Below are positions 6,549-64,000 of a DNA stretch of 64,000 nucleotides, in pieces. The notes under the pieces are model-generated. The model was not told the DNA's origin, searched no databases, and worked only from the letters and a program-made list of their open reading frames with translations. The stretch spans positions 124,001 through 188,000 of the forward strand of contig NC_007426.1 in assembly GCF_000026045.1 (NCBI RefSeq), given 5' to 3'. Within the stretch, counting starts at the first letter, position 1. Every line of letters begins with the position of its first letter. Origin of the DNA: Natronomonas pharaonis DSM 2160 (GTDB lineage Archaea; Halobacteriota; Halobacteria; Halobacteriales; Haloarculaceae). Position numbers and translations under genes: made by a program.

Positions 6549-8777
6549 TCAGTCCCGTTCCTCGGGGTCGATGCGTCCGAGCCGGAAGGCGTTGCCCGTG
6601 ACGCCGAGGCTCATCCCCATGTCGCCGACGAGAACGGCGATAATGACGGAGACATAGCCGAACGGAACACCGGCAGCCAAGAGGGCTTTGACCCCGAGGC
6701 TGGCGACGATGTTCTGTTTGATGACGCCGTTTGCGGTCCGCGAGAGTCGGAGACAGTACGGCACTCCGTTGAGGTCATCAGCCATGAGCGCGATATCGGC
6801 AGTTTCGAGCGCGGCGTCCGTTCCGGCGGCACCCATCGCGATACCGACATCGGCTCTTGCGAGCGCGGGGGCGTCGTTGACGCCGTCGCCGACCATCGCT
6901 ACGGTGCCCGCCGCCAGCAGGTCCTCGATGGCGTCGAGTTTCTCTTCCGGTAGGAGTTCCGCTTGAACGTCCTCGATGCCAACGGTGTCGCCGACCGCGC
7001 GCGCGGTGCGCTCGTTGTCGCCGGTCAGCATCACCGTCCGCACGCCGGCATCTGAGAGCGCCTCGATGACACGCCCGGCCTCGGGCCGAACGGTGTCGGC
7101 GACAGCGACGACACCGACTAACTCCGTCTCAGTGCCGACAATCACGACCGTCTTCCCCTCGTCCTGTAGCTCCGCTATCGTCTCTGTGCGGAGGTCGACA
7201 CAACCGGGACGGTCGCAGTCGGCCACACCGGCAGCAGCGCTGACACCGCCATCGGACCGCAGATGGGCGTGGCCGAGGTCGTGGCCGAGGTCGGCAAACA
7301 GCCCCGGCTTGCCGACGTAGTAGGTCTCGTCGAGGTCGCCCCGGACGCCGCGGCCGGTGAGGTTCTCGAAGGCCGTCGCGGAGGGATAGCCGACGTCCTG
7401 TTCGTCGGCGTATTCGACGACCGCCTCACCGATCGGGTGTTCGCTGTACTGCTCGACCGCCGCTGCCGTGGTAAGGACATCCTGCCGCTCGTAGCCAGCC
7501 GCCGGTACGATATCAGTAACGGAGAGTTCACCCGTGGTGAGCGTCCCCGTCTTGTCGAAAGCAACGGTGTCGACCTCGCCCATCCGTTCGAGATGGTCGC
7601 CGCCCTTGACGAGGACGCCGTTGCGGGCCGCGCTCGTGAGCCCGGAAACGACAGTGACCGGCGTCGAGATGACGAAGGCGCAAGGGCAGGCGATGACAAG
7701 CAGTGTCAGCCCACGGACGAACCACGTGTCCCACGGCCAACCGAAGGCCAGCGGCGGGACGAGGAAGGTCAGGACGGCAAGAACGACGACGACCGGCGTA
7801 TAATACCCGGCGAAGCGGTCGACGAACTGTTCGGCCTCCGTCCGTCTGGATTCGGCCTGCTCGACGAGTTCGATAACCCGGGACAGCGTCGTCTCATCGC
7901 CCGGCGCTGTCGCTTCGATTTCGAGGTAGCCGCCCTCGGCGACGGAGCCGGCATACACCTCGTCGCCGTCGTCCTTGTCGACCGGCACCGACTCGCCGGT
8001 TATCGGGGACTCGTCGACCGCTGACGCGCCGTCGGCGACGACGCCGTCGACCGGTATCCGCTCGCCGGGGCGGACGACGACTGTCTGGCCGACCCCAACA
8101 CTCGCTGCCGGGACCGTCTCCTCGTCGCCGTCTGCCCGCTTGACCGTCGCCGTCTCCGGCGACAGCGCCAGCAGTTCACGAATCGACTCGCGGGTGCGGT
8201 CCATCGCATGGGCCTCAAGCAGCTCTGCGGTACTGAAAAGGACCGCCAGCGTCGCCGCCTCGACGTAGTGGTCAGCGACAACGGCAGCGATGATAGCCGC
8301 ACCCATCAGCAGGTCGATATCAAGCTCACGGAGGCGAGCAGAACGGAGTCCCGCACGGACGATTGGCGTACCGGCGACCGCGCCGGAAACGAGGAAGGCA
8401 ACATCGCTGAGGGTTGTCTCGCGGCCGACGGTAGCAAGCGTCGGGTCGGCAAGCGGCCCCCACAGGGACAGAAAGCCAAGCGCCATCGCGACAGCGCCGA
8501 GACCGGTTAGCGTGGCGCGCCGACTCCGCCAGACGTCGGCCCCGCCAGTCATCCGTCCCTCGGTGTCGACCACCTCGTAGCCGGCCGCCTCGACGGTGGC
8601 GACAAGCGATGGAACATCCGTCGCCGAGTCATCGTATTCAACGACAACCACGCCGCTCGTCGGTCGTGTCTCGACGCGCTCGACACCAACAGCATCAGTC
8701 AGCGCCGACTCGACTTTCCCCGCACACGACGAGCAGTCCATCTCCGGCGCCGATAGCTCAACGCGCTCGTGGCTCAT
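6549..8777 (-). CDS. Heavy-metal translocating P-type ATPase, Zn/Cd type (P1B-2)
   Basis: 742 residues. An N-terminal heavy-metal-associated domain has MDCSSC (Cys15, Cys18). The membrane metal site is CPC at 364-366 in a context (ACPCAFVISTPVTVVSGL) typical of ZntA/CadA pumps. The phosphorylation Asp is D408 in DKTGTLTTG, the HP motif is in EHPIGEA, and the hinge is MVGDGVNDAPALARADVGIAMG. The last helices contain GDMG, where ZntA-type pumps carry the metal-coordinating Asp. It should export Zn2+, Cd2+ or Pb2+. An unusual His/Cys-bearing insert occupies residues about 497-526 (GHDLGHAHL, CDRPGC). It converges with the amidase gene. Confidence 0.95.
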   Translation of the reverse strand: MSHERVELSAPEMDCSSCAGKVESALTDAVGVERVETRPTSGVVVVEYDDSATDVPSLVATVEAAGYEVVDTEGRMTGGADVWRSRRATLTGLGAVAMALGFLSLWGPLADPTLATVGRETTLSDVAFLVSGAVAGTPIVRAGLRSARLRELDIDLLMGAAIIAAVVADHYVEAATLAVLFSTAELLEAHAMDRTRESIRELLALSPETATVKRADGDEETVPAASVGVGQTVVVRPGERIPVDGVVADGASAVDESPITGESVPVDKDDGDEVYAGSVAEGGYLEIEATAPGDETTLSRVIELVEQAESRRTEAEQFVDRFAGYYTPVVVVLAVLTFLVPPLAFGWPWDTWFVRGLTLLVIACPCAFVISTPVTVVSGLTSAARNGVLVKGGDHLERMGEVDTVAFDKTGTLTTGELSVTDIVPAAGYERQDVLTTAAAVEQYSEHPIGEAVVEYADEQDVGYPSATAFENLTGRGVRGDLDETYYVGKPGLFADLGHDLGHAHLRSDGGVSAAAGVADCDRPGCVDLRTETIAELQDEGKTVVIVGTETELVGVVAVADTVRPEAGRVIEALSDAGVRTVMLTGDNERTARAVGDTVGIEDVQAELLPEEKLDAIEDLLAAGTVAMVGDGVNDAPALARADVGIAMGAAGTDAALETADIALMADDLNGVPYCLRLSRTANGVIKQNIVASLGVKALLAAGVPFGYVSVIIAVLVGDMGMSLGVTGNAFRLGRIDPEERD

Positions 8778-8849
8778 TAGCCGACAGTAGCATCTACAGC
8801 GGCAAAGCGGTGCGTTTGGTGTGTACCAAACGTCTGGAGGGTCGTGGAG

Positions 8850-9890
8850 TCACTCGGTCTTTGGCTCGTGGCGGACACGGTAGCCACTGTCCGTCTCTGT
8901 GACGGCTTCGGCTGTATAGAGCTGGATTCCCCGTTCCTGCTTCGTCCGAACCGGGAAGTCGTAGTTGTCGGCGCGATATTCGAAGCTCTCGCCCGTCGAG
9001 CGGCGGCGGTCGATGAACGCCCGGTGCTCGTCGAGCCGTTCGTCGGTGACACGACGGGAGAGCGCGGGGACATCGGCCGCGCGGTCGTCGAAGGCTTCGA
9101 CGAGTCCATCATCGAGTTCGTAGCCGACCGAGTTCCGGCCGGCGACCATCGCTGCCAGCGTGGTCGTCCCCGTTCCCCAGAACGGGTCGAGAACGGTATC
9201 GCCGTAGGTGCTGTACATGTTGATGAGCCGATAGGGAATCTCGAACGGGTAGGCAGCCGAGCGGTCCCGGAGGTCCTCGTTGTCGAGTGTCTGCGTCTCA
9301 CCCCGGACATCCGTCCAAACATCGGAGAACCACTGGTTCCGCTCCTCCCAGAAGTAGGCCGCCTCGTAGCGGCGGTCGGCGTTCGGCTCGAAGGCCCGCC
9401 GGCCCCCGTTCCGGAACACGAGGATATACTCGTGTTCGAGAGTGACGTAGGCGTTCGGCGGAACCATCCCGGAGCCCATGAACTTCGCCGTCGAGTTGGC
9501 CGGTTTGCGCCAGAGCACCTCGGGAAGCGGGTCGAAGCCGAGCGACTCGAAGGCCTCGATGATGCGGGCGTGGTTCTGATAGACGCGAAAGCCGTCTCCG
9601 AGCGTCCGGGTCGCGTCGCCGACGTTGACACAGGCAATGCCGCCATCGACGAGGACGCGCGACAGCTCCCGCCAGACCGCATCGAGCTGCTCGTGCATCG
9701 CCTCGAAGGCGGCGTCGCCGTCACCGTCGGAAAGCAGCGATGCCACCGTCCCGTCGAGGTCGGCAAAGAGGTCGTCCCAAAGCTCGACCATCGGGTACGG
9801 CGGCGAGGTAACGACCAGCTCGACCGCATCGTCGTCGAGTTCCTCCAGCCCGCGGGCGTCGCCGGCGACGATGCGATGAGTGGTTTTCAT
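8850..9890 (-). CDS. zim: Orphan DNA N4-cytosine methyltransferase, probably CTAG-specific
   Basis: 346 residues from ATG 9890, starting MKTTHRIVAGDARGLEEL; the 24 codons of upstream open frame are not family-like. The catalytic motif TSPPYPM (28-34) precedes the AdoMet motif DPFWGTGTTTLAAM (235-248), a beta-class order, and SPPY is typical of N4-cytosine enzymes. There is no restriction endonuclease nearby. The N-terminus closely resembles the conserved haloarchaeal orphan methylase called Zim, which marks CTAG; that identification is from memory. Scarcity of CTAG in this window fits. It diverges from the UbiA-family gene. Confidence 0.85.
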   Translation of the reverse strand: MKTTHRIVAGDARGLEELDDDAVELVVTSPPYPMVELWDDLFADLDGTVASLLSDGDGDAAFEAMHEQLDAVWRELSRVLVDGGIACVNVGDATRTLGDGFRVYQNHARIIEAFESLGFDPLPEVLWRKPANSTAKFMGSGMVPPNAYVTLEHEYILVFRNGGRRAFEPNADRRYEAAYFWEERNQWFSDVWTDVRGETQTLDNEDLRDRSAAYPFEIPYRLINMYSTYGDTVLDPFWGTGTTTLAAMVAGRNSVGYELDDGLVEAFDDRAADVPALSRRVTDERLDEHRAFIDRRRSTGESFEYRADNYDFPVRTKQERGIQLYTAEAVTETDSGYRVRHEPKTE

Positions 9891-10000
9891 GGCGACCGCT
9901 TTTCTCCCCGGCCGGATAGTCCCTTCCGTCGCGGCGAGGCCGCGTCCCTGCCCGTGACACAAAGAATCAACCGGCTGGACGGCGTACGCTGAACGGACGG

Positions 10001-10861
10001 ATGGAACGCGGTACCGCCGGGACGCGTCAATTGCGGAGACGACTCCGTGATGTCGCCGTCCTCTTCGTCCACAGCAATCTCCTCATCTCGCTGGCGGCGA
10101 CGAGCGTCGCCTTCTCGACGATGTGGCTCGTCGGCGTGTCTGCCGACCCGGTACCGCTGTTTATCGTCTTCGCGGCGACGCTTTTCGTCTACAGCCTCAA
10201 CCGGTTGACAGACATCGAAGAGGACAGACAGAACGTCCCGCGGCGGGCAGCCTTCATCGAACGCTACGGCAAGCCGCTGTTTGCGGCCGGTGTCGCGCTG
10301 TATCTCGGCGCTATCGCCGTTGCCGTCTGGCTCGGGCTTCCCGGCGCGCCGTTTCTCATCCTTCCTGCAGTAGTTGCAGCGCTGTATTCGACGTTTAAAA
10401 TCAAGCAGCGACTGCTCGTCAAGAATCTCGTGGTCGGCGTCGCGTGGGGCATCATCCCGCTCGGCGTCGGCGTCTACTACGGCGTGCTCTGGACACCGGA
10501 GGTGCTCTTTGCCTTCGTGTTCGTTACTGTCATGCTGACAGTCGCAGCGGCGATTTTTGATATCAAGGACATCGAGGGCGACCGAGCGGAGGGAATTAGG
10601 ACGTTCCCGATTGTTTTCAGCCCGGCAGCGACACGTTGGGGTGCCGCCGTCATCACCGTCCTCGTCGCGGCCGGCGTCGTCGTCGCCGTTGCGACCGGCG
10701 TCGTCTCGCATCGAGCGCTCGTTTTTCTGTCGCTTTCGGCGTACGTCTTCGCCTACATCCCCTTTGCGAGCCGCGACCGCGGGCCGCTGTTTTACGGGTT
10801 CGTCGTCGACGGCGAGCACGTCTTTCTGGGAGCGGTGGTCCTGCTCGTCGAGTGGCTGTGA
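10001..10861 (+). CDS. UbiA-family prenyltransferase (integral membrane)
   Basis: 286 residues with about eight hydrophobic segments. Both Asp-rich motifs of the UbiA superfamily are present: NRLTDIEED (about residues 67-75) for prenyl-diphosphate/Mg2+ binding and [12 protein letters not shown] (about 187-198). These enzymes attach isoprenoid chains to aromatic or other acceptors in the membrane, for example in menaquinone, haem or archaeal lipid synthesis. The acceptor cannot be told from sequence, and no quinone pathway gene is adjacent. The downstream atpD gene has its own promoter-like element, so co-transcription is not required. Confidence 0.9.
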
Positions 10862-10890
10862 ACGGACAAGCCGCCCGCGACGACTGGAAA

Positions 10891-10898
10891 GGATTAAC
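10891..10898 (+). promoter_or_regulatory. TATA-like element before atpD
   Basis: GGATTAAC lies about 28-35 nt before the atpD ATG at 10926, inside the 64-bp gap after the prenyltransferase gene. It suggests that atpD is transcribed separately. Confidence 0.45.
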
Positions 10899-10925
10899 CC
10901 GGTTCGGACTGAAGGGCCGACAAGA

Positions 10926-11621
10926 ATGAGCAAGGACGTCAAGCCGACGCGGAAGAACCTCATGGCCATCGAGGACCGCATCGAGCTGTCCGAGCGGGGC
11001 CACGACACGCTCGAAAAGAAACGGGACGGCCTCATCATGGAGTTCATGGACATTCTCGACCAGGCACAGGATGTCCGGTCCGACCTCGATGAGAACTACG
11101 AGCGCGCTCAGCGGAACATCAACATGGCGCGGGCGATGGAAGGCGATGTCGCGGTCCGGGGGGCCGCCGCAGCGCTGAAAGAACACCCCGAAATCACCAC
11201 GCAGTCGAAGAACATCATGGGCGTCGTCGTCCCGCAAATCGAGTCGACGAAGGTCAAGAAGTCTCTCGACCAGCGCGGCTACGGACTCGTCGGGACGTCC
11301 GCCCGCATCGACGAGGCTGCCGACGCCTACGAGGAGCTGTTGGAGACCATCATTCTCGCCGCCGAGGTCGAGACGGCGATGAAGAAGATGCTCGACGAAA
11401 TCGAGAAGACCAAGCGCCGTGTCAACGCCCTCGAGTTCAAGCTGCTTCCCGAGCTCCACGAGGCACAGGAGTACATCGAGCAGAAGCTCGAAGAACAGGA
11501 GCGGGAAGAGATATTCCGGATGAAGAAAATCAAGGCGAAAAAGGAAGAAGAGGAAGAAGAAAACCCCGTCGCCGACACCGAATCCGCCGCGGAAGCGGCC
11601 GTCACGGAAGCCGGGCAGTAG
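10926..11621 (+). CDS. atpD: A-type ATP synthase subunit D
   Basis: 231 residues. The sequence [41 protein letters not shown] is the classic start of the central-stalk D subunit (V/A-type), followed by a long central segment and a second long coiled coil (about 130-205) ending in a charged KKEEEEEE tail. Subunit D forms the rotor axle with subunit F and couples catalysis in A3B3 to rotation of the membrane ring. None of the other eight ATPase subunit genes is adjacent, whereas haloarchaea normally keep D at or near the end of one cluster. The start follows a short gap with its own promoter-like element. Confidence 0.97.
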
Positions 11622-11779: not shown

Positions 11780-13201
11780 ATGAGCGAACGCGAATCTCTC
11801 TCGGGGGCGGACAACGCGTGGCGGCGGATGGGGACACCGACGAACCTGATGACGATTACGGGGGTGATGATGTTCGACGAACGGATGACCTACGAGGACC
11901 TCTGTAATCGGCTCGAAGAGCGGCTGCTTCGGTTCGAGCGGTTCCAACAGCGTATTGGCGGCCGGAAGCGCCGATTCAGACAACCCTACTGGGAAACCGT
12001 CGACGGCTTCGATGTCGAACCGCACGTCTACCACATCTCGCTGCCGGAGCCGCAGGATAAGGCGACCTTCGAGGCGTTCGTGGGAAAACTGATGAGTCGG
12101 CCGCTCGATGAGTCGCGGCCGCTGTGGGAAGCGTATCTCGTCGATGGAGCGGGGCCGGGAGAAGGAAACGCAGTAGCGTTCCGGCTCAACCACAGCATCG
12201 GGGACGGCTTTGCGCTGCTGTATGTCCTGCTCGGGCTCGTCGACAACCCCGGCGACATCGAACTCCCATCGGGGATGGTGTCGGCACCGGATGATATCGG
12301 CGACGATGCCGACAGCGGAGCGGACGGGGGTAATGGGTCGGACGAAAGCGACGTGGCGAGTGGGGACGGACAGCCCGCCGACACCGATTCGAAATCGGAT
12401 GGAGAACGTGGCTCGTCGGGGCTCCCGAGTCCCGTCAGCGCGGCCGGGACTGCAGCGACGGGCGTTGCGACGGGGTATGACCTCCTGTTCGGCGACGACG
12501 ACCCCGATACCTCGCTCCGCGGCGAGCTGGGGCAAACAAAGCGGGCGGCTTGGACCGACGAGATTCCACTGGAACAGGTCAGGACCGTCTGTGAGGCCCA
12601 GCCGCACAGGGCAACCATCAACGACGTTCTGCTGGCGGCGCTTGCGGGGGCGCTTCGCCGGCTCTTAGAGGACCGCGGCGAACCCGTCGACGGGATGGAA
12701 CTCCACGGGACCGTGCCGGTCAACCTCAAGCCGATGGCGGAGCGGGACGGTTCGCTGGGGAACAACTTCGGGCTGGTGTTCCTGCCGCTGCCGGTCGGTA
12801 CTGAGCCGCTACAGGAGCGAATCAGCATCATCCACGAGTGGATGGACGGCAAGCGGGCAGGGATTCAGGCGTTCCTGATGTACGCGCTGTTGACCATCGG
12901 CGGCCACGTGCCCGAGTACGTCCAAAAGAAGGTGATGACGCTGTTCGAGGACCGCGCGACCGGCGTCGTGACGAACGTCCCGGGGCCGACAGATGCCATC
13001 CAGTTCGCCGGACGCGAGATAACCGACATGATATTCTGGGTGCCGCAGGCCAACGAACAAGGCATCGGCATCAGCATCTTCAGCTACGACGGCAACGTCA
13101 GAGTCGGCGTCGCGGCCGACGAAAACCTGCTCGGAGCGCCCGGAGAACTCGCGGCAGCCTTCGAGGCGGAGATGGAGGCGCTACTCGAAGACGCCGAGTA
13201 G
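11780..13201 (+). CDS. WS/DGAT-family acyltransferase
   Basis: 473 residues. The N-terminal segment LSGADNAWRRMGTPTNLMTITGVMMFD and the condensing motif NHSIGDG (137-143) match the wax ester synthase/diacylglycerol acyltransferase family; the canonical HHxxxDG has Asn in place of the first His, but the catalytic second His (H138) is kept. The C-terminal half has LHGTVPVNLKP, NNFGLVFLPLP and TGVVTNVPGP, also family hallmarks. These enzymes acylate alcohols or diacylglycerol with acyl-CoA. An acidic, Gly/Ser-rich linker at about 167-215 separates the two halves. Because archaeal membrane lipids are ethers, the physiological substrate is uncertain. Confidence 0.88.
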   Translation: MSERESLSGADNAWRRMGTPTNLMTITGVMMFDERMTYEDLCNRLEERLLRFERFQQRIGGRKRRFRQPYWETVDGFDVEPHVYHISLPEPQDKATFEAFVGKLMSRPLDESRPLWEAYLVDGAGPGEGNAVAFRLNHSIGDGFALLYVLLGLVDNPGDIELPSGMVSAPDDIGDDADSGADGGNGSDESDVASGDGQPADTDSKSDGERGSSGLPSPVSAAGTAATGVATGYDLLFGDDDPDTSLRGELGQTKRAAWTDEIPLEQVRTVCEAQPHRATINDVLLAALAGALRRLLEDRGEPVDGMELHGTVPVNLKPMAERDGSLGNNFGLVFLPLPVGTEPLQERISIIHEWMDGKRAGIQAFLMYALLTIGGHVPEYVQKKVMTLFEDRATGVVTNVPGPTDAIQFAGREITDMIFWVPQANEQGIGISIFSYDGNVRVGVAADENLLGAPGELAAAFEAEMEALLEDAE

Positions 13202-13236
13202 TACAATTCATACGGAGCGGGCCGATAACGGGGCGT

Positions 13237-13629
13237 ATGAACTGTCCGAGCTGCGATGTCCCGCTTGTCGTCTTCGATGTCCCCGTCACGTACCGAGATT
13301 ACATTCCAGAAGGTGCCGAACGCGCCGGGCTGTGTCCGGAGTGTCTGGCGCTGGCCGCCGCGGAGGATGCGGCTGCCGAGTCGCGCTTCGAGCGCATCAC
13401 CAGTTCGTTCCCAACCGACGAGGACGCGGCCGTGCCGCTGGCCATCGCTGTCGGGCTGCTCGATTCGCTCGCGCTCAACCGGCAGGCGCTGGAGGAGTTG
13501 CTGACCGATGTCGAGAGCGCCGGCGTCGACCCGCTGTTGGTCTTAGACCGGCTACACGTACAGGGCGGCACCAACCCTGAGTTCGATATTGAGCGACGAC
13601 GACACCAGTTGACACAGCTACTCGATTAA
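13237..13629 (+). CDS. DUF6276-type small zinc-ribbon protein
   Basis: 130 residues. The N-terminus MNCPSCDVPLVVFDVP and LCPECLALA give two CxxC pairs (about 30 residues apart), forming a zinc ribbon. The remainder is helical (VPLAIAVGLLDSLALNRQALEELL) and ends DIERRRHQLTQLLD. It resembles a conserved haloarchaeal family (DUF6276) of unknown role. Its stop codon shares TTAA with the stop of the convergent aRF1 gene. It starts 36 bp after the acyltransferase and may be co-transcribed with it. Confidence 0.75.
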   Translation: MNCPSCDVPLVVFDVPVTYRDYIPEGAERAGLCPECLALAAAEDAAAESRFERITSSFPTDEDAAVPLAIAVGLLDSLALNRQALEELLTDVESAGVDPLLVLDRLHVQGGTNPEFDIERRRHQLTQLLD

Positions 13630-14867
13630 ACGCCGGTCGAGTATCGGAGGATGCCAGCGATGCCGCCGAAGGCGGTCAGTAGCTGTTCGCCCTTCTCGAA
13701 GTCCGTCGAGATGAATTTCACGTCGGAGCCGCGCTGTTCGGCCAGTTCCATCAGGTGGTCGATGGCGTCTTCCCGTTCGACGGCCTCGCCCTCGGAGCCG
13801 TCCTCGCAGGTGTGGTCGGGCGTGTCGGCCCGGCGGTCGATGAGTTCGTACTCTTCGCGGCTGCCGCAATCGAAGGTGACGACATCCTTTCGGAGGTCTT
13901 CGCTGATGAGCAGCCGGTCGACCGACCCCATCATCAGGTTCTGTCTGGTCGCATCGAAGCCGTAGGTCGCCTTCTGGCCGTCGTGGAGCTGCTCGAAGAA
14001 CTCCTCCATTTCGGCCTTATCTTTCATGACCTCCGTCTCGGCGAGGACGTCCTCGGCGGCGTCGACGAGGTCGTACAGCCCCGACTCGTCGGTGTAGGAG
14101 ATGTCGAACTTGCCCAACACCATGTCCTGTAGCTCGTGGTGGAGGTAGTCGCCGTCGAGGAATTCGTCCTTTGTCGGCGAAGGCCCACCGACGAGGATGC
14201 CGTCCATCTCGTGGCGCTTCGGAACGAAGAGGTCGTCAGCCATCTCGGCGACCTCCTGATAGAAGTTGTCGATGGCTTCGAGCCGCAGGCGGGCGAATCG
14301 CTGGGCGGACTGGCCACCTTTCCGCTGCTTGCCCGGCACCAGCGAGGAGGCGGACTTGACCGGCTCGACACGCTTGCCCTTCAGCCAGCCGACGTTGGCC
14401 TCTCGGCGGTCGAGGACAACGAGCCCGTAGAGGCCCTTGTCGCCAAGCATCTCCTGCAGCGGCTCGGTGAGAAAATGCGAGTCACAGTGGTACCGGAACG
14501 ACTGAATCGGGTCCGGCGGCGACTCAAGCACTTCCGTGACCATGTCGGTTTGGCCACCGCCGGCATCGACCGCGCCCGAAAACAGCACCATCCCCCTGTC
14601 CGGCGGGAAGGTATCGTAGTACTTCAGCCGATCCTTGAGACTCTTGAGAGCATCCTGTACCGCAGTCCGGGTCTGCTTTGATTTGATGTTCGCGGCTTCG
14701 CTGTGCTCCTGTGTGACGTGTTGGACCACGTCGCTTATTTGTCGGTCTTCGGGGACGTAAATCGAGACGAGCTGGGTCCCGGAGCCCGAATACTCGTCGA
14801 GTTCCTCGATTACCTTCTGGAACTCGTATTTCTGTTTGTCTGACGGCTCCCCGTCGTCTTCGCTCAT
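13626..14867 (-). CDS. prf1: Peptide chain release factor aRF1
   Basis: 413 residues, the family length. Domain 1 has the stop-codon reading motifs NIKS (60-63) and YxCxxxF (126-132). Domain 2 has the catalytic GGQ (184-186) in KGGQSAQRF, which triggers peptidyl-tRNA hydrolysis. Domain 3 follows to the end. It recognises all three stop codons in archaea and works with aEF1A in place of a dedicated RF3-type GTPase. The gene is convergent with the zinc-ribbon gene, and the two stop codons overlap by two bases. Confidence 0.97.
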   Translation of the reverse strand: MSEDDGEPSDKQKYEFQKVIEELDEYSGSGTQLVSIYVPEDRQISDVVQHVTQEHSEAANIKSKQTRTAVQDALKSLKDRLKYYDTFPPDRGMVLFSGAVDAGGGQTDMVTEVLESPPDPIQSFRYHCDSHFLTEPLQEMLGDKGLYGLVVLDRREANVGWLKGKRVEPVKSASSLVPGKQRKGGQSAQRFARLRLEAIDNFYQEVAEMADDLFVPKRHEMDGILVGGPSPTKDEFLDGDYLHHELQDMVLGKFDISYTDESGLYDLVDAAEDVLAETEVMKDKAEMEEFFEQLHDGQKATYGFDATRQNLMMGSVDRLLISEDLRKDVVTFDCGSREEYELIDRRADTPDHTCEDGSEGEAVEREDAIDHLMELAEQRGSDVKFISTDFEKGEQLLTAFGGIAGILRYSTGV

Positions 14868-59995: not shown

Positions 59996-61072
59996 TCAGT
60001 CGCCGCGCTGCTCGACGTACTGGCGGGTCCCGCCCAGAAGTACGTAGTCAGTCTCTTGGAGGTCGGCGACTGTCGGCGAACCGGTGACGAACATCGCCGT
60101 CCGGAGTTCAGTTTTCAAATCCTCGATGCGCTCGACGACGGCTTCGGTGCCCGATGCGGCCGGTTCGAGGAACGGCTTGGCGAGACCGCCGGCGCGGGCT
60201 CCCAAGGCGATGGCCTTCGCGACATCGAGGCCCGTTCGGACGCCGCCGCTGGCGACGACGCAGTCGTGTTCGGCGGCGCATTCGAGCGTGCTGACCGCGG
60301 TCGGGACGCCCCACTCGCGGAACAGTTCGCCGACGCGCTCCTGTCTGGAGGCCCCGACGGCGGCCGCGCGGTAGGCTTCGACGCCGGACCACGTCGTACC
60401 GCCCTTGCCGGCGACGTCGATTGCGTCAACGCCGGCATCGGCGAGCCGGCGTGCCGTTTCAGCGGCGAACCCGTTGCCGGTCTCCTTGACGACGACCGGC
60501 ACTGAGAGACCGTCGACGACCCGTTCGATGGCCGGCAAGCATCCCCGAGCGTCGACATCGCCCTCCGGCTGGACCGCTTCCTGCAGGAAGTTCAAGTGGA
60601 CGGCGAGCGCGTCGGCGTCTATCATCTCGACGGCGCGTTCGACGGTTTCGAGGTCGTACTCTTTGAGCTGTGCGGCCCCGAGGTTCCCGTAGAGAAACGC
60701 GTCCGGGGCGGCCTCGCGGACGACGGTGTAGGATTCGAGGACGCCCTCGTCGTCGAGTTCAAGCCCGGCCCGTTGGCTGCCGACGCCCATCGCGATACCT
60801 GTCTCGGCGGCGGCGGCCGCAAGCGCCCGGTTGATATCGGTCGTGTTGGCGTGGCCGCCGGTCATGCTCTCGATGACTATCGGCGCGTCGAGTTCAGCAC
60901 CGAGGAAGGGGATGCTGGTGTCGATATCATCGTAGTGGACGTCGGGCAACGCCTCGTGAACCAGACGGACATCGCCGAGCCCGGTGCCGCCGGATTCGAC
61001 ATCTTCTTCGCGGATGATTCGCACGTGGTCGTCCTTGCGGTCCTCCGTCTCAGACGGCTCCGAGTCCGGCAT
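59996..61072 (-). CDS. fni: Isopentenyl-diphosphate delta-isomerase, type 2 (FMN-dependent)
   Basis: 358 residues, TIM barrel. [16 protein letters not shown] near the start, [106 protein letters not shown] and the phosphate-binding loop identify type 2 IDI. It needs reduced FMN and interconverts IPP and DMAPP for membrane lipids, carotenoids and quinones. Confidence 0.95.
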
Positions 61073-61130: not shown

Positions 61131-64000
61131 TCAGAGCCCGGCGAAGACGGCGACTCGGCTAGCGAGACTGAACGTGACTAGCCCGCCGGCAGCTACCATT
61201 CCGAGGAAGCCAGTCAGCTGTCCGAAGCTGGTGACGAGGCTGCCACCGTAGTCCTGCTGTGTCTCCTCGGCTGCACCGGTCTCCTCGGATTCGTCGCCGG
61301 CATCACCGCTTTCCGACCCGTCTGCATCGAACTCGACGTCCAGTTCTAGTTCGAACCAGTTGGTTCCTGATTCGGTGACCGGAAGCTCAAGCTGGGAGTC
61401 GATAATCGTGTCACCGGTTGTATCATCGACGAGGAACTCATTGTCCACGAGCGTCGCGGAGCCAGAGTCGTCGCTGAAGGAGCCGTCACCGCTAAGAGCA
61501 CCGCTGTCGCCAGTTGTCGTATCGATTTCGAAGCTGAACGTCGTGTCCGGGTCCCCACCGACGGCGACTTCGAGTTCACCGGTTGCCGTCATCTCACCGG
61601 TTTCTTCGTTGATTTCACCCGAAAGACCGTCGGGTGCGCTGACTTCGGCTTCAACGCCTGAATCAGTCACGAGCGTCGGGAACACCGTCTGCTCTGATTC
61701 CCACGTACCGTCGTCGATTGTGCCGACGATTCGGATGTGACTGTCGTCGTCACCCTGTACTGGGAAGGCAAGTCCCTCCTCAATGGCTTGGTCTTCGCCG
61801 TCCTCGGCAAAGGAGATGAACCCGCCTTGGCTGTGAGCGACAAAGGACTCACCGTCGACTTCGACCTCAGCGGGTTCCGCTGCCGACTCACCGCTGGTGG
61901 ATTCGTCATCGTCAGACGCTTCGGCGGCCGACTGTTCCGGGTCGTCCTCTTTGTCGGCCTCGTCTTCGTCTTCCGCAGCCGCTGTGTCCGGTGTTTCACC
62001 TTCTTCGATATCGACGCTGAGTTCGAGTTCGAGCCAGTTTTCACCCGGAGAGGTCGCCGGAAGGTCAAGCACTGTATCGATCGTATCGTCGCCGCTCTCG
62101 TCGGAAACGAGGTACTCATTATCGACCACGGTAACGGACCCGCCGTCGGCATCGAGGTCTCCGCTTCCGTCGAGCGCACCGCTTCCGTCAGTGGTAAGTT
62201 CGACATCGAAACTGAAGCTCCCGGCGTCAGGGATAGTCACAGTCAGGGTTCCTTCCACGGTCATGTAATCGCTTTCGGGGTCGAGTTCACCCTCCAGACC
62301 GTCCGGAACAGACACCTCGGCTGTGATGCCGTCTGCATCGAGGTCCGGGAAGTCGACCGATGTCGAACGCCACGTGTCGCCGTTGTAGGTTCCTTCGACT
62401 TCGATTGCGCCGTCGTCATCGCCTTCCGCAGGGAGCTCAAGGCCCTCCTCGCGGGCAGTCTCGACGTCGTCGGGCTCAGAGAAGGAGATGAAACCGCCTT
62501 GGCTCGTTACGGAAACCGTATCGGCTCCCTCTGCATCTTCAGCCTCGTCGTCATCCGCCTCGACGACGACCTCGGCGCTTGCAGTATCGTCTTCCGTTTC
62601 TATTTCAGCGGTGTGTTCTCCAACGTCGTCTGTGCTGGTCTCCCAATCGAAGAAGACGGAAGCCTCTTCCTCAACGTCGAGGGTGACCGATTCTGTCATC
62701 GAGTCGTCGCCGACTGACAACACAACATCCTGTGTGCCCGCGCCGTCACCGACGTTTTCGATTGTGGCGACGATTTCGGCCGTTTCACCGGCGGTAACCT
62801 CATCCCCGACGAGGATGGCTTCTAACGCGGGGTCGCCAGCTTCGAGCGCGATATCGCGTTCGGTGGTCTCGTCTTCCTCAATTTCGACTTCAACTGTCGT
62901 CTCGTAGTAGCCATCCGCGTCGACCGCAAGGTCGTACGTACCAACAGGGAGGTCGAACGCATACGAGCCGTCCTCATCGGTTTGGGTTGCATCCAGCTCG
63001 TCGACAACGTTCACATCCGCGTTAGCTATCGGGTCGCCGGCTTCTGATTCGACAGTGCCTTCGACGGAGCCGGTCGGAACGTCAGTGTCGGTTATTTCGA
63101 TATCAAGCGGCAGCTCAATCCAGTTTTCACCTTCCTCCGTCGAAGGGAGCCCCAGTCCGCTGTCGACGGTACTGTCGCCGGTCGTGTCCTCAACGAGGAA
63201 CTCGTTGTCGACGACGGTCACTGCACCGCCGTCGTCGGCGATATCACCACTACCGGACAACGCATTGCTGTCGTCTGTCAGCGAGGCTATCTCAAACTCG
63301 AAGGACGTATCCTCGTCGTTGTCGATGACGACCCGGAACTCACCCTCGGCGGTCATGTGGTCAGCGTCCTCATCAATGTCGCCGTACAGTTTCTCGTCGA
63401 CGTACACGTCAACATCCATGCCGCTGGCCTCAAGCGTGGGGAACGAAACTTCTGTCGACTGCCACGAGCCGTCGTCGAATATCTCGCCACGTATCTGGAT
63501 CGGGGTTTCGTCGTCACTCCGAGCCGGGAACTCAACGCCCTCCTCGCGGGCGTCAGCCTCAGTCTCTTCGTTGAAGGCGACGAATCCACCCTGACTCACC
63601 GCAGTGAATTCACCGACCTGCGGTCCGTCCGGCCCGCTTGGCCCGTCGTCTTCGAGTTCGTCAACGATGTCGACTTTCCCGTGGCCCCACCAGACATCGT
63701 CGCCATCATACGACTCCAGTTCGGTCGTGCCGTGCCACATCTGTGAGTCGTCCGTGACATCTATTTCAGCAGTCTCGCCCGCGTAATCGCTGAGGGACGC
63801 AAACTCAAGCGTGACGAGCGTGACGTTCATATCGGGCGAGGCTTCGCCGTCCGCGACCTCAGCAATCATCTCGTCGTACGCGTTTTCGAAAGCGTTGGGA
63901 TTCCATTCAACCGACACGGTACCATTGTCCTGCTCTACGTCGAGGTCTTCATCCTCCGCGAGGAACGACTCGGCGCTGTCGAAGACGAGTATTTCATCGT
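61131..64000 (-). CDS. Large surface protein with three repeats of an unrecognised domain (N-terminus outside window)
   Basis: The frame is open to the right edge; at least 955 residues are present. An in-frame GTG at 63917 is used here as residue 1 for numbering only. Three related domains of about 170 residues occupy 106-275, 470-638 and 694-863; each begins with SQGGF(V/I)(A/S)F and contains LSGSGD/ALDGSGD, TVVDNE(F/Y)LV and a final NWxELxLDxE. Between copies 1 and 2 are a carboxypeptidase-regulatory-like domain (284-358, GSVEGTVESEAGDPIANADV) and a CARDB-like domain (about 366-455). The C-terminus ends in a hydrophobic helix (about 901-920) with no PGF-type signal seen. A very acidic linker separates copies 2 and 3. 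Probably a cell-surface or secreted, membrane-anchored protein. Confidence 0.85.
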   Translation of the reverse strand, partial: DEILVFDSAESFLAEDEDLDVEQDNGTVSVEWNPNAFENAYDEMIAEVADGEASPDMNVTLVTLEFASLSDYAGETAEIDVTDDSQMWHGTTELESYDGDDVWWGHGKVDIVDELEDDGPSGPDGPQVGEFTAVSQGGFVAFNEETEADAREEGVEFPARSDDETPIQIRGEIFDDGSWQSTEVSFPTLEASGMDVDVYVDEKLYGDIDEDADHMTAEGEFRVVIDNDEDTSFEFEIASLTDDSNALSGSGDIADDGGAVTVVDNEFLVEDTTGDSTVDSGLGLPSTEEGENWIELPLDIEITDTDVPTGSVEGTVESEAGDPIANADVNVVDELDATQTDEDGSYAFDLPVGTYDLAVDADGYYETTVEVEIEEDETTERDIALEAGDPALEAILVGDEVTAGETAEIVATIENVGDGAGTQDVVLSVGDDSMTESVTLDVEEEASVFFDWETSTDDVGEHTAEIETEDDTASAEVVVEADDDEAEDAEGADTVSVTSQGGFISFSEPDDVETAREEGLELPAEGDDDGAIEVEGTYNGDTWRSTSVDFPDLDADGITAEVSVPDGLEGELDPESDYMTVEGTLTVTIPDAGSFSFDVELTTDGSGALDGSGDLDADGGSVTVVDNEYLVSDESGDDTIDTVLDLPATSPGENWLELELSVDIEEGETPDTAAAEDEDEADKEDDPEQSAAEASDDDESTSGESAAEPAEVEVDGESFVAHSQGGFISFAEDGEDQAIEEGLAFPVQGDDDSHIRIVGTIDDGTWESEQTVFPTLVTDSGVEAEVSAPDGLSGEINEETGEMTATGELEVAVGGDPDTTFSFEIDTTTGDSGALSGDGSFSDDSGSATLVDNEFLVDDTTGDTIIDSQLELPVTESGTNWFELELDVEFDADGSESGDAGDESEETGAAEETQQDYGGSLVTSFGQLTGFLGMVAAGGLVTFSLASRVAVFAGL
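61329..61838 (-). repeat. Domain repeat copy 3 of the surface protein
   Basis: Encodes residues 694-863 of the numbering used for the surface protein. It starts HSQGGFISFAEDG and ends NWFELELDVEF. Best conserved core: ATLVDNEFLVDDTTGD. Confidence 0.8.
62004..62510 (-). repeat. Domain repeat copy 2 of the surface protein
   Basis: Encodes residues 470-638: TSQGGFISFSEPDD to NWLELELSVDIE. It follows the CARDB-like domain. Confidence 0.8.
63093..63602 (-). repeat. Domain repeat copy 1 of the surface protein
   Basis: Encodes residues 106-275: AVSQGGFVAFNEET to NWIELPLDIEI. It is followed by the carboxypeptidase-regulatory-like domain. Confidence 0.8.

Follow-up and report, generated by a model that had tools for sequence, protein, structure and literature searches.

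Haloarchaeal envelopes contain many acidic secreted proteins without assigned function. At one edge of the DNA analyzed here (the window, a stretch of 64,000 nucleotides corresponding to bases 124001 to 188000 of a 2,595,221-base contig in the 2.75-Mb genome of Natronomonas pharaonis DSM 2160) lies a gene that an earlier note had read as coding for a surface protein with three copies of an unrecognised domain. Here we ask what this repeated unit is, in which proteins it recurs, and what it might do at the cell surface.

The window gene and the architecture of its product

The ORF listing gave the gene as a minus-strand frame (61131 to 63998) cut short by the window edge. The complete frame in the host genome begins at an ATG 379 bases past the window (window-equivalent 64379) and encodes 1082 residues, of which the window holds the C-terminal 955; the protein is termed P0001. 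The N-terminal part, which the earlier note had proposed to obtain from the neighboring sequence, was recovered there as 127 residues that take in the signal together with part of the cohesin-like domain. The repeats originally placed at residues 106-275, 470-638, and 694-863 of a 928-residue form starting at GTG are residues 256-432, 620-794, and 844-1020 of the full protein (Table 1). Read by eye, the flanking genes are idi2 downstream (59996 to 61072, minus strand) and a gene for a TFIIS-like zinc protein upstream.

TABLE 1 Features of the P0001 gene and its protein in window coordinates
Feature	Position	Strand	Basis
Gene for 1082-residue putative membrane-anchored surface protein, window part	61131..64000	-	Open ORF; full ORF in host genome
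Cohesin-like N-terminal domain, residues 83-240, window part	63660..64000, on to window-equivalent 64133	-	Weak profile matches
Repeated domain copy 1, residues 256-432	63084..63614	-	Alignments; AlphaFold model
CarboxypepD_reg domain, residues 438-513	62841..63068	-	PF13620, E 4.9e-18
CARDB-like domain, residues 523-606	62562..62813	-	E 0.56 here; 9e-6 and 1.1e-4 in paralogues
Repeated domain copy 2, residues 620-794	61998..62522	-	Alignments
Acidic linker, copy 2 to copy 3	61851..61997	-	Sequence comparison with paralogues
Repeated domain copy 3, residues 844-1020	61320..61850	-	Alignments; AlphaFold model
Predicted membrane helix at the C terminus (residues 1048-1076), small residues conserved	61152..61238	-	Hydropathy; tail alignment

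All three copies proved to be full length, with pairwise identities of 47, 51, and 48%. Smith-Waterman scores between copies ranged from 413 to 454, far above those of shuffled controls (mean of about 54, maximum of 99; z = 39 to 46). The common motifs described before, SQGGF, VDNE(F/Y)LV, and NWxELxLD, were found in similar form in 3/3 copies, and seven copies taken from three paralogues show no variation at the S, G, W, VDNE, LP, and NW positions.

Between copies 1 and 2, the carboxypeptidase-regulatory-like domain claimed earlier is a clear Pfam match (65.7 bits versus a cut-off of 32.3 for PF13620). The CARDB-like domain claimed alongside it was borne out in part: PF07705 scored 10.9 bits in P0001, below the cut-off of 22.7, and reached the cut-off in the paralogues P0002 (26.3 bits, above it) and P0003 (22.7 bits, at it). 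The assignment in P0001 leans mainly on these paralogues, which carry a second CarboxypepD_reg plus CARDB where P0001 has the linker between copies 2 and 3. Matches of the paralogues to the Kustd1514 S-layer model of NCBIfam lay mainly over the CarboxypepD_reg/CARDB stretches, far below the cut-off, and were rejected. P0001 resembles CARDB/CarboxypepD_reg multidomain surface proteins in having both domain types, CARDB weakly, but its repeated unit belongs to neither family. When a profile of the N-terminal domain was searched against the PDB, four matches were obtained at E≤10, all to short endoglucanase or scaffolding-protein (scaffoldin) chains, which we take to be cohesins. The similarity to cohesins is weak and not significant (E 0.36 to 0.91), and PF00963 (cohesin) was absent from the Pfam search of P0001.

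Hydropathy alone marks two hydrophobic segments in P0001, residues 36-54 (the signal) and 1052-1070, and the same combination of an N-terminal signal and a C-terminal helix was predicted for 8/8 long proteins of the family examined. A second acidic linker separates copy 3 from the C-terminal helix, whose small residues are kept across orthologues in the tail alignment; such conservation would suit helix packing.

Rare relatives of the repeated domain in haloarchaea

When Pfam, NCBIfam, PHROGs, and PDB sequences were searched with the extracted copies, nothing significant was retrieved, in keeping with the earlier note, which did not recognise the unit. Scanning IMG/VR with the domain yielded no relative, tblastn with copy 3 found nothing in plasmids, and a literature search brought up no paper in which the domain is named. 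Within the haloarchaeal class, close profile matches occurred in 15/391 genomes and matches to a divergent profile in 17/391, including those 15. Eleven genomes of the same genus, that of N. pharaonis included, were among those searched, and it alone was positive.

Of the ten copies in the N. pharaonis genome, nine are spread over P0001, P0002, and P0003, three per protein, and the tenth belongs to a Tat lipoprotein of 383 residues (L011, 6771-7922) whose gene lies beside two S-layer-glycoprotein-type genes. P0004 and P0005, encoded beside the lipoprotein, match S-layer glycoprotein, BGTF, and PGF-CTERM models and contain halo_surf_dom and PGF-CTERM, whereas NCBIfam detected neither of the latter two in P0001. 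The adjacent S-layer-type genes of L011 span 8278-11460 and 12203-13771; the second ORF begins within sequence that corresponds by homology to the central part of the first and seems to have lost its N-terminal portion. P0002 (L009, 8614-12273) and P0003 (L010, 7394-11119) share a DNA block of about 2.6 kb that is 88% identical, and at the protein level their copies 2 and 3 are 98-100% identical and their copies 1 59% identical. This uneven identity suggests a recent duplication or gene conversion.

The number of copies per protein ranges from one to three across the family. Natronorubrum texcoconense and Natronolimnohabitans innermongolicus encode two-copy proteins, and a Halovenus MAG encodes a protein with one copy (L014, 5038-6510), in which the domain comes last and the N-terminal part weakly matches ABC_transp_aux/DUF4350 (GldG-like). 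Genome G064 encodes a fusion of the domain with DUF7827, halo_surf_dom, and S-layer sequence (L045, 6358-10947). Divergent relatives carry single copies after CARDB repeats, of which there are up to eight, and some single-copy relatives are small secreted proteins or lipoproteins. The surface location proposed earlier thus fits the signal and membrane helix of P0001, the Tat-lipoprotein relatives, and the S-layer-fused relative. Haloarchaeal S-layer glycoproteins (NF041335, halo_surf_dom NF045517, DUF7827) are likewise acidic and exported, and the domain is fused to such sequence in G064 and adjoins such genes in N. pharaonis; P0001, however, has neither those domains nor PGF-CTERM and appears to use another C-terminal anchor.

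Profile comparison by hhalign joined the close and divergent groups over their full length (E 1.5e-25). The divergent group also aligned, in its C-terminal part alone, with actinobacterial secreted hypothetical proteins from Rhodococcus (WP_030537611.1, WP_058228201.1) and Embleya (E 2.6e-8, against 0.17-0.76 for reversed and unrelated controls), with which it shares the motif D..F.VP..sGCG ... P...G.N. The similarity spans 45-98 columns. The actinobacterial proteins are missing the N-terminal motif and have no Pfam entry, and compared directly with the close family they gave an E value of 0.59, which is not significant. We regard this link as provisional.

In a tree of the copies, copies 1 and 3 grouped with the first and last copies, respectively, of the two-copy Natrialbaceae proteins, with support of 94/87 for the copy-1 group and 94/95 for the copy-3 group, both just under the strict threshold of the tool. 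The copy-2 group (99/98) passed this threshold; copy 2 was seen in the N. pharaonis paralogues alone and has no Natrialbaceae counterpart in the tree. By this tree, each of copies 1 and 3 has its ortholog among the Natrialbaceae copies, the first and the last, respectively, at a support just below the strict threshold.

These data bear on an alternative in which the repeated domains are inert spacers that lengthen an acidic stalk and are conserved for folding alone. CARDB and CarboxypepD_reg domains are frequent spacers, and the repeated unit sits beside them in varying number and shows no catalytic pattern in the close family. Still, length can hardly be the point in single-copy relatives that are small secreted proteins or lipoproteins, about 38 columns of the close family alignment are at least 90% conserved, and copies 1 and 3 have stayed distinct across two families. 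We therefore consider the spacer alternative unlikely, though worth keeping in view beside the one that we prefer, namely, that the unit is a binding or packing module.

Predicted fold and its structural neighbors

Two AlphaFold models were built from eight sequences, the first with copy 3 and the second with copy 1 as the query. Both are all-beta, with about 12 strands and two short helices, in line with the beta-rich domain anticipated before, at a pLDDT of 62-65 (61.7 and 64.9, respectively; pTM 0.60 and 0.62), and the C-terminal third of each is largely below a pLDDT of 50. The repeated unit is thus predicted to be a beta-sandwich of about 175 residues with two short helices.

Foldseek returned no match at E≤0.001 with either model, and the OmpA, secretin, and photosystem matches were taken as generic beta matches. 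The top match of the second, better model was the HtaA C-terminal domain 6jsc (probability 0.96, E 0.023, TM of about 0.4), and 8smu, HtaA CR2, was also among its matches. The repeated unit might then be a remote version of the heme-binding HtaA/CR fold and the protein might capture heme or another tetrapyrrole at the surface. CR domains are about 165-180 residues long, form a beta-sandwich of 11 strands with two helices, carry an axial tyrosine in helix 1, and occur as multiple copies in surface proteins (PMC12494546). The repeated unit is like them in size and in its multi-copy occurrence, and the two low-confidence models correspond to the sandwich in outline. Yet the match is weak, with a TM below 0.5 on a model at pLDDT 65, and the other model prefers YceI. 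PF04213 (HtaA) found nothing in 116 haloarchaeal genomes and had no match at E≤10 to the repeated domain in 13 members, a search in which the HMMER filters drop most weak matches. Moreover, the close family has no conserved His/Tyr/Cys pattern, and none of its columns reaches 50% Tyr or His in 20 rows. Since the axial tyrosine has no counterpart, heme binding is unlikely even if the HtaA fold is shared, and we hold this reading to be improbable.

More improbable still is a YceI/lipocalin-like barrel binding isoprenoid lipids at the membrane face: YceI 3q34 was the best-probability match of the first model (0.91, E 0.03, TM of about 0.38), and the neighboring idi2, identified by eye, serves isoprenoid synthesis, which may be coincidence, but YceI ranks lower for the second model (probability 0.51), PF04264 (YceI) gave no match to the repeated domain in Pfam, and the paralogues lie away from isoprenoid genes.

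A four-helix membrane protein encoded beside family genes

Reading of the flanks revealed, beside the genes of long domain proteins, a gene whose product has four hydrophobic segments in 160-203 residues; this protein belongs to no Pfam or NCBIfam family. A match to heliorhodopsin (E 0.0043, 16.6 bits versus a cut-off of 100), given by one of four members, was rejected. Eight strong sites (E≤1.5e-50) were found in 7/391 genomes, and 7/7 of these genomes also carry the repeated domain. At 7/8 sites the four-helix gene adjoins a domain gene (P0003 in N. pharaonis, whose four-helix neighbor lies at L010, 6876-7358, and sites in G115, G119, G352 (two sites), G370, and G386), and the eighth, in G377, lies on another contig than the domain gene. 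By eye, the flanks fall into five distinct contexts (hisS, L012, L054, guaA-like, and N. pharaonis). Chance estimates for the co-occurrence are very small, although they assume independence, which shared ancestry breaks. With one exception the paired genes are convergent, and they therefore do not form one operon. The window gene adjoins idi2 and the TFIIS-like gene rather than a four-helix gene, which its paralogue P0003 does adjoin; the pairing may thus hold for only part of the family.

Several further arrangements were noticed. Fusions in L110 and L111 (G386 and G370) combine, as judged by eye, the four-helix domain with a helical module and a stretch resembling CarboxypepD_reg, and a similar helical module is seen by eye close to the end of the S-layer fusion protein of G064. 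Distant four-helix proteins, detected as weak matches, are encoded directly beside lipoprotein genes in L098 and L101, and the gene context looks common to the two genomes. Weak four-helix profile matches (E 1e-4 to 1e-11), with no domain gene alongside by eye, were left uncounted.

Discussion

The repeats, the domain architecture, the family relations, and the conserved neighbor were established by sequence comparison, and from them we infer a surface location, a binding role, and a physical interaction with the four-helix protein. P0001 would be exported by its N-terminal signal and anchored by one C-terminal membrane helix, as a highly acidic stalk projecting a series of beta domains (cohesin-like, repeated unit, CarboxypepD_reg, CARDB-like, and two further repeated units). 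Most likely, the repeated unit is not an enzyme but a module that binds or packs, in contact with other proteins or with the envelope in the S-layer zone, and the membrane end of the stalk probably assembles with the small four-helix protein encoded beside many family members. We give this account as a whole a slightly better than even chance of being right. A bolder version, in which the domain and the four-helix protein make up an undescribed two-part envelope system of certain haloarchaea, handed from one lineage to another as a gene pair, perhaps tied to life in soda lakes, and docked through the C-terminal helix of the stalk on the membrane protein, is speculative and on present evidence rather doubtful.

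Taken together, the repeated unit is found in none of the searched libraries, occurs in putative membrane-anchored envelope proteins, and possibly works with the four-helix protein. Because its rare relatives are in cell-surface proteins, often by a four-helix gene, the domain may represent a hitherto undescribed component of the archaeal envelope. A recurring domain has now been delimited, its copies have been sorted into orthologous positions, and it has been tied to S-layer genes and a small membrane protein. Transformation of N. pharaonis has reportedly been achieved recently (PMC12963326). The gain is a defined profile with which to annotate the domain and, in this organism, a protein pair that can be tested.
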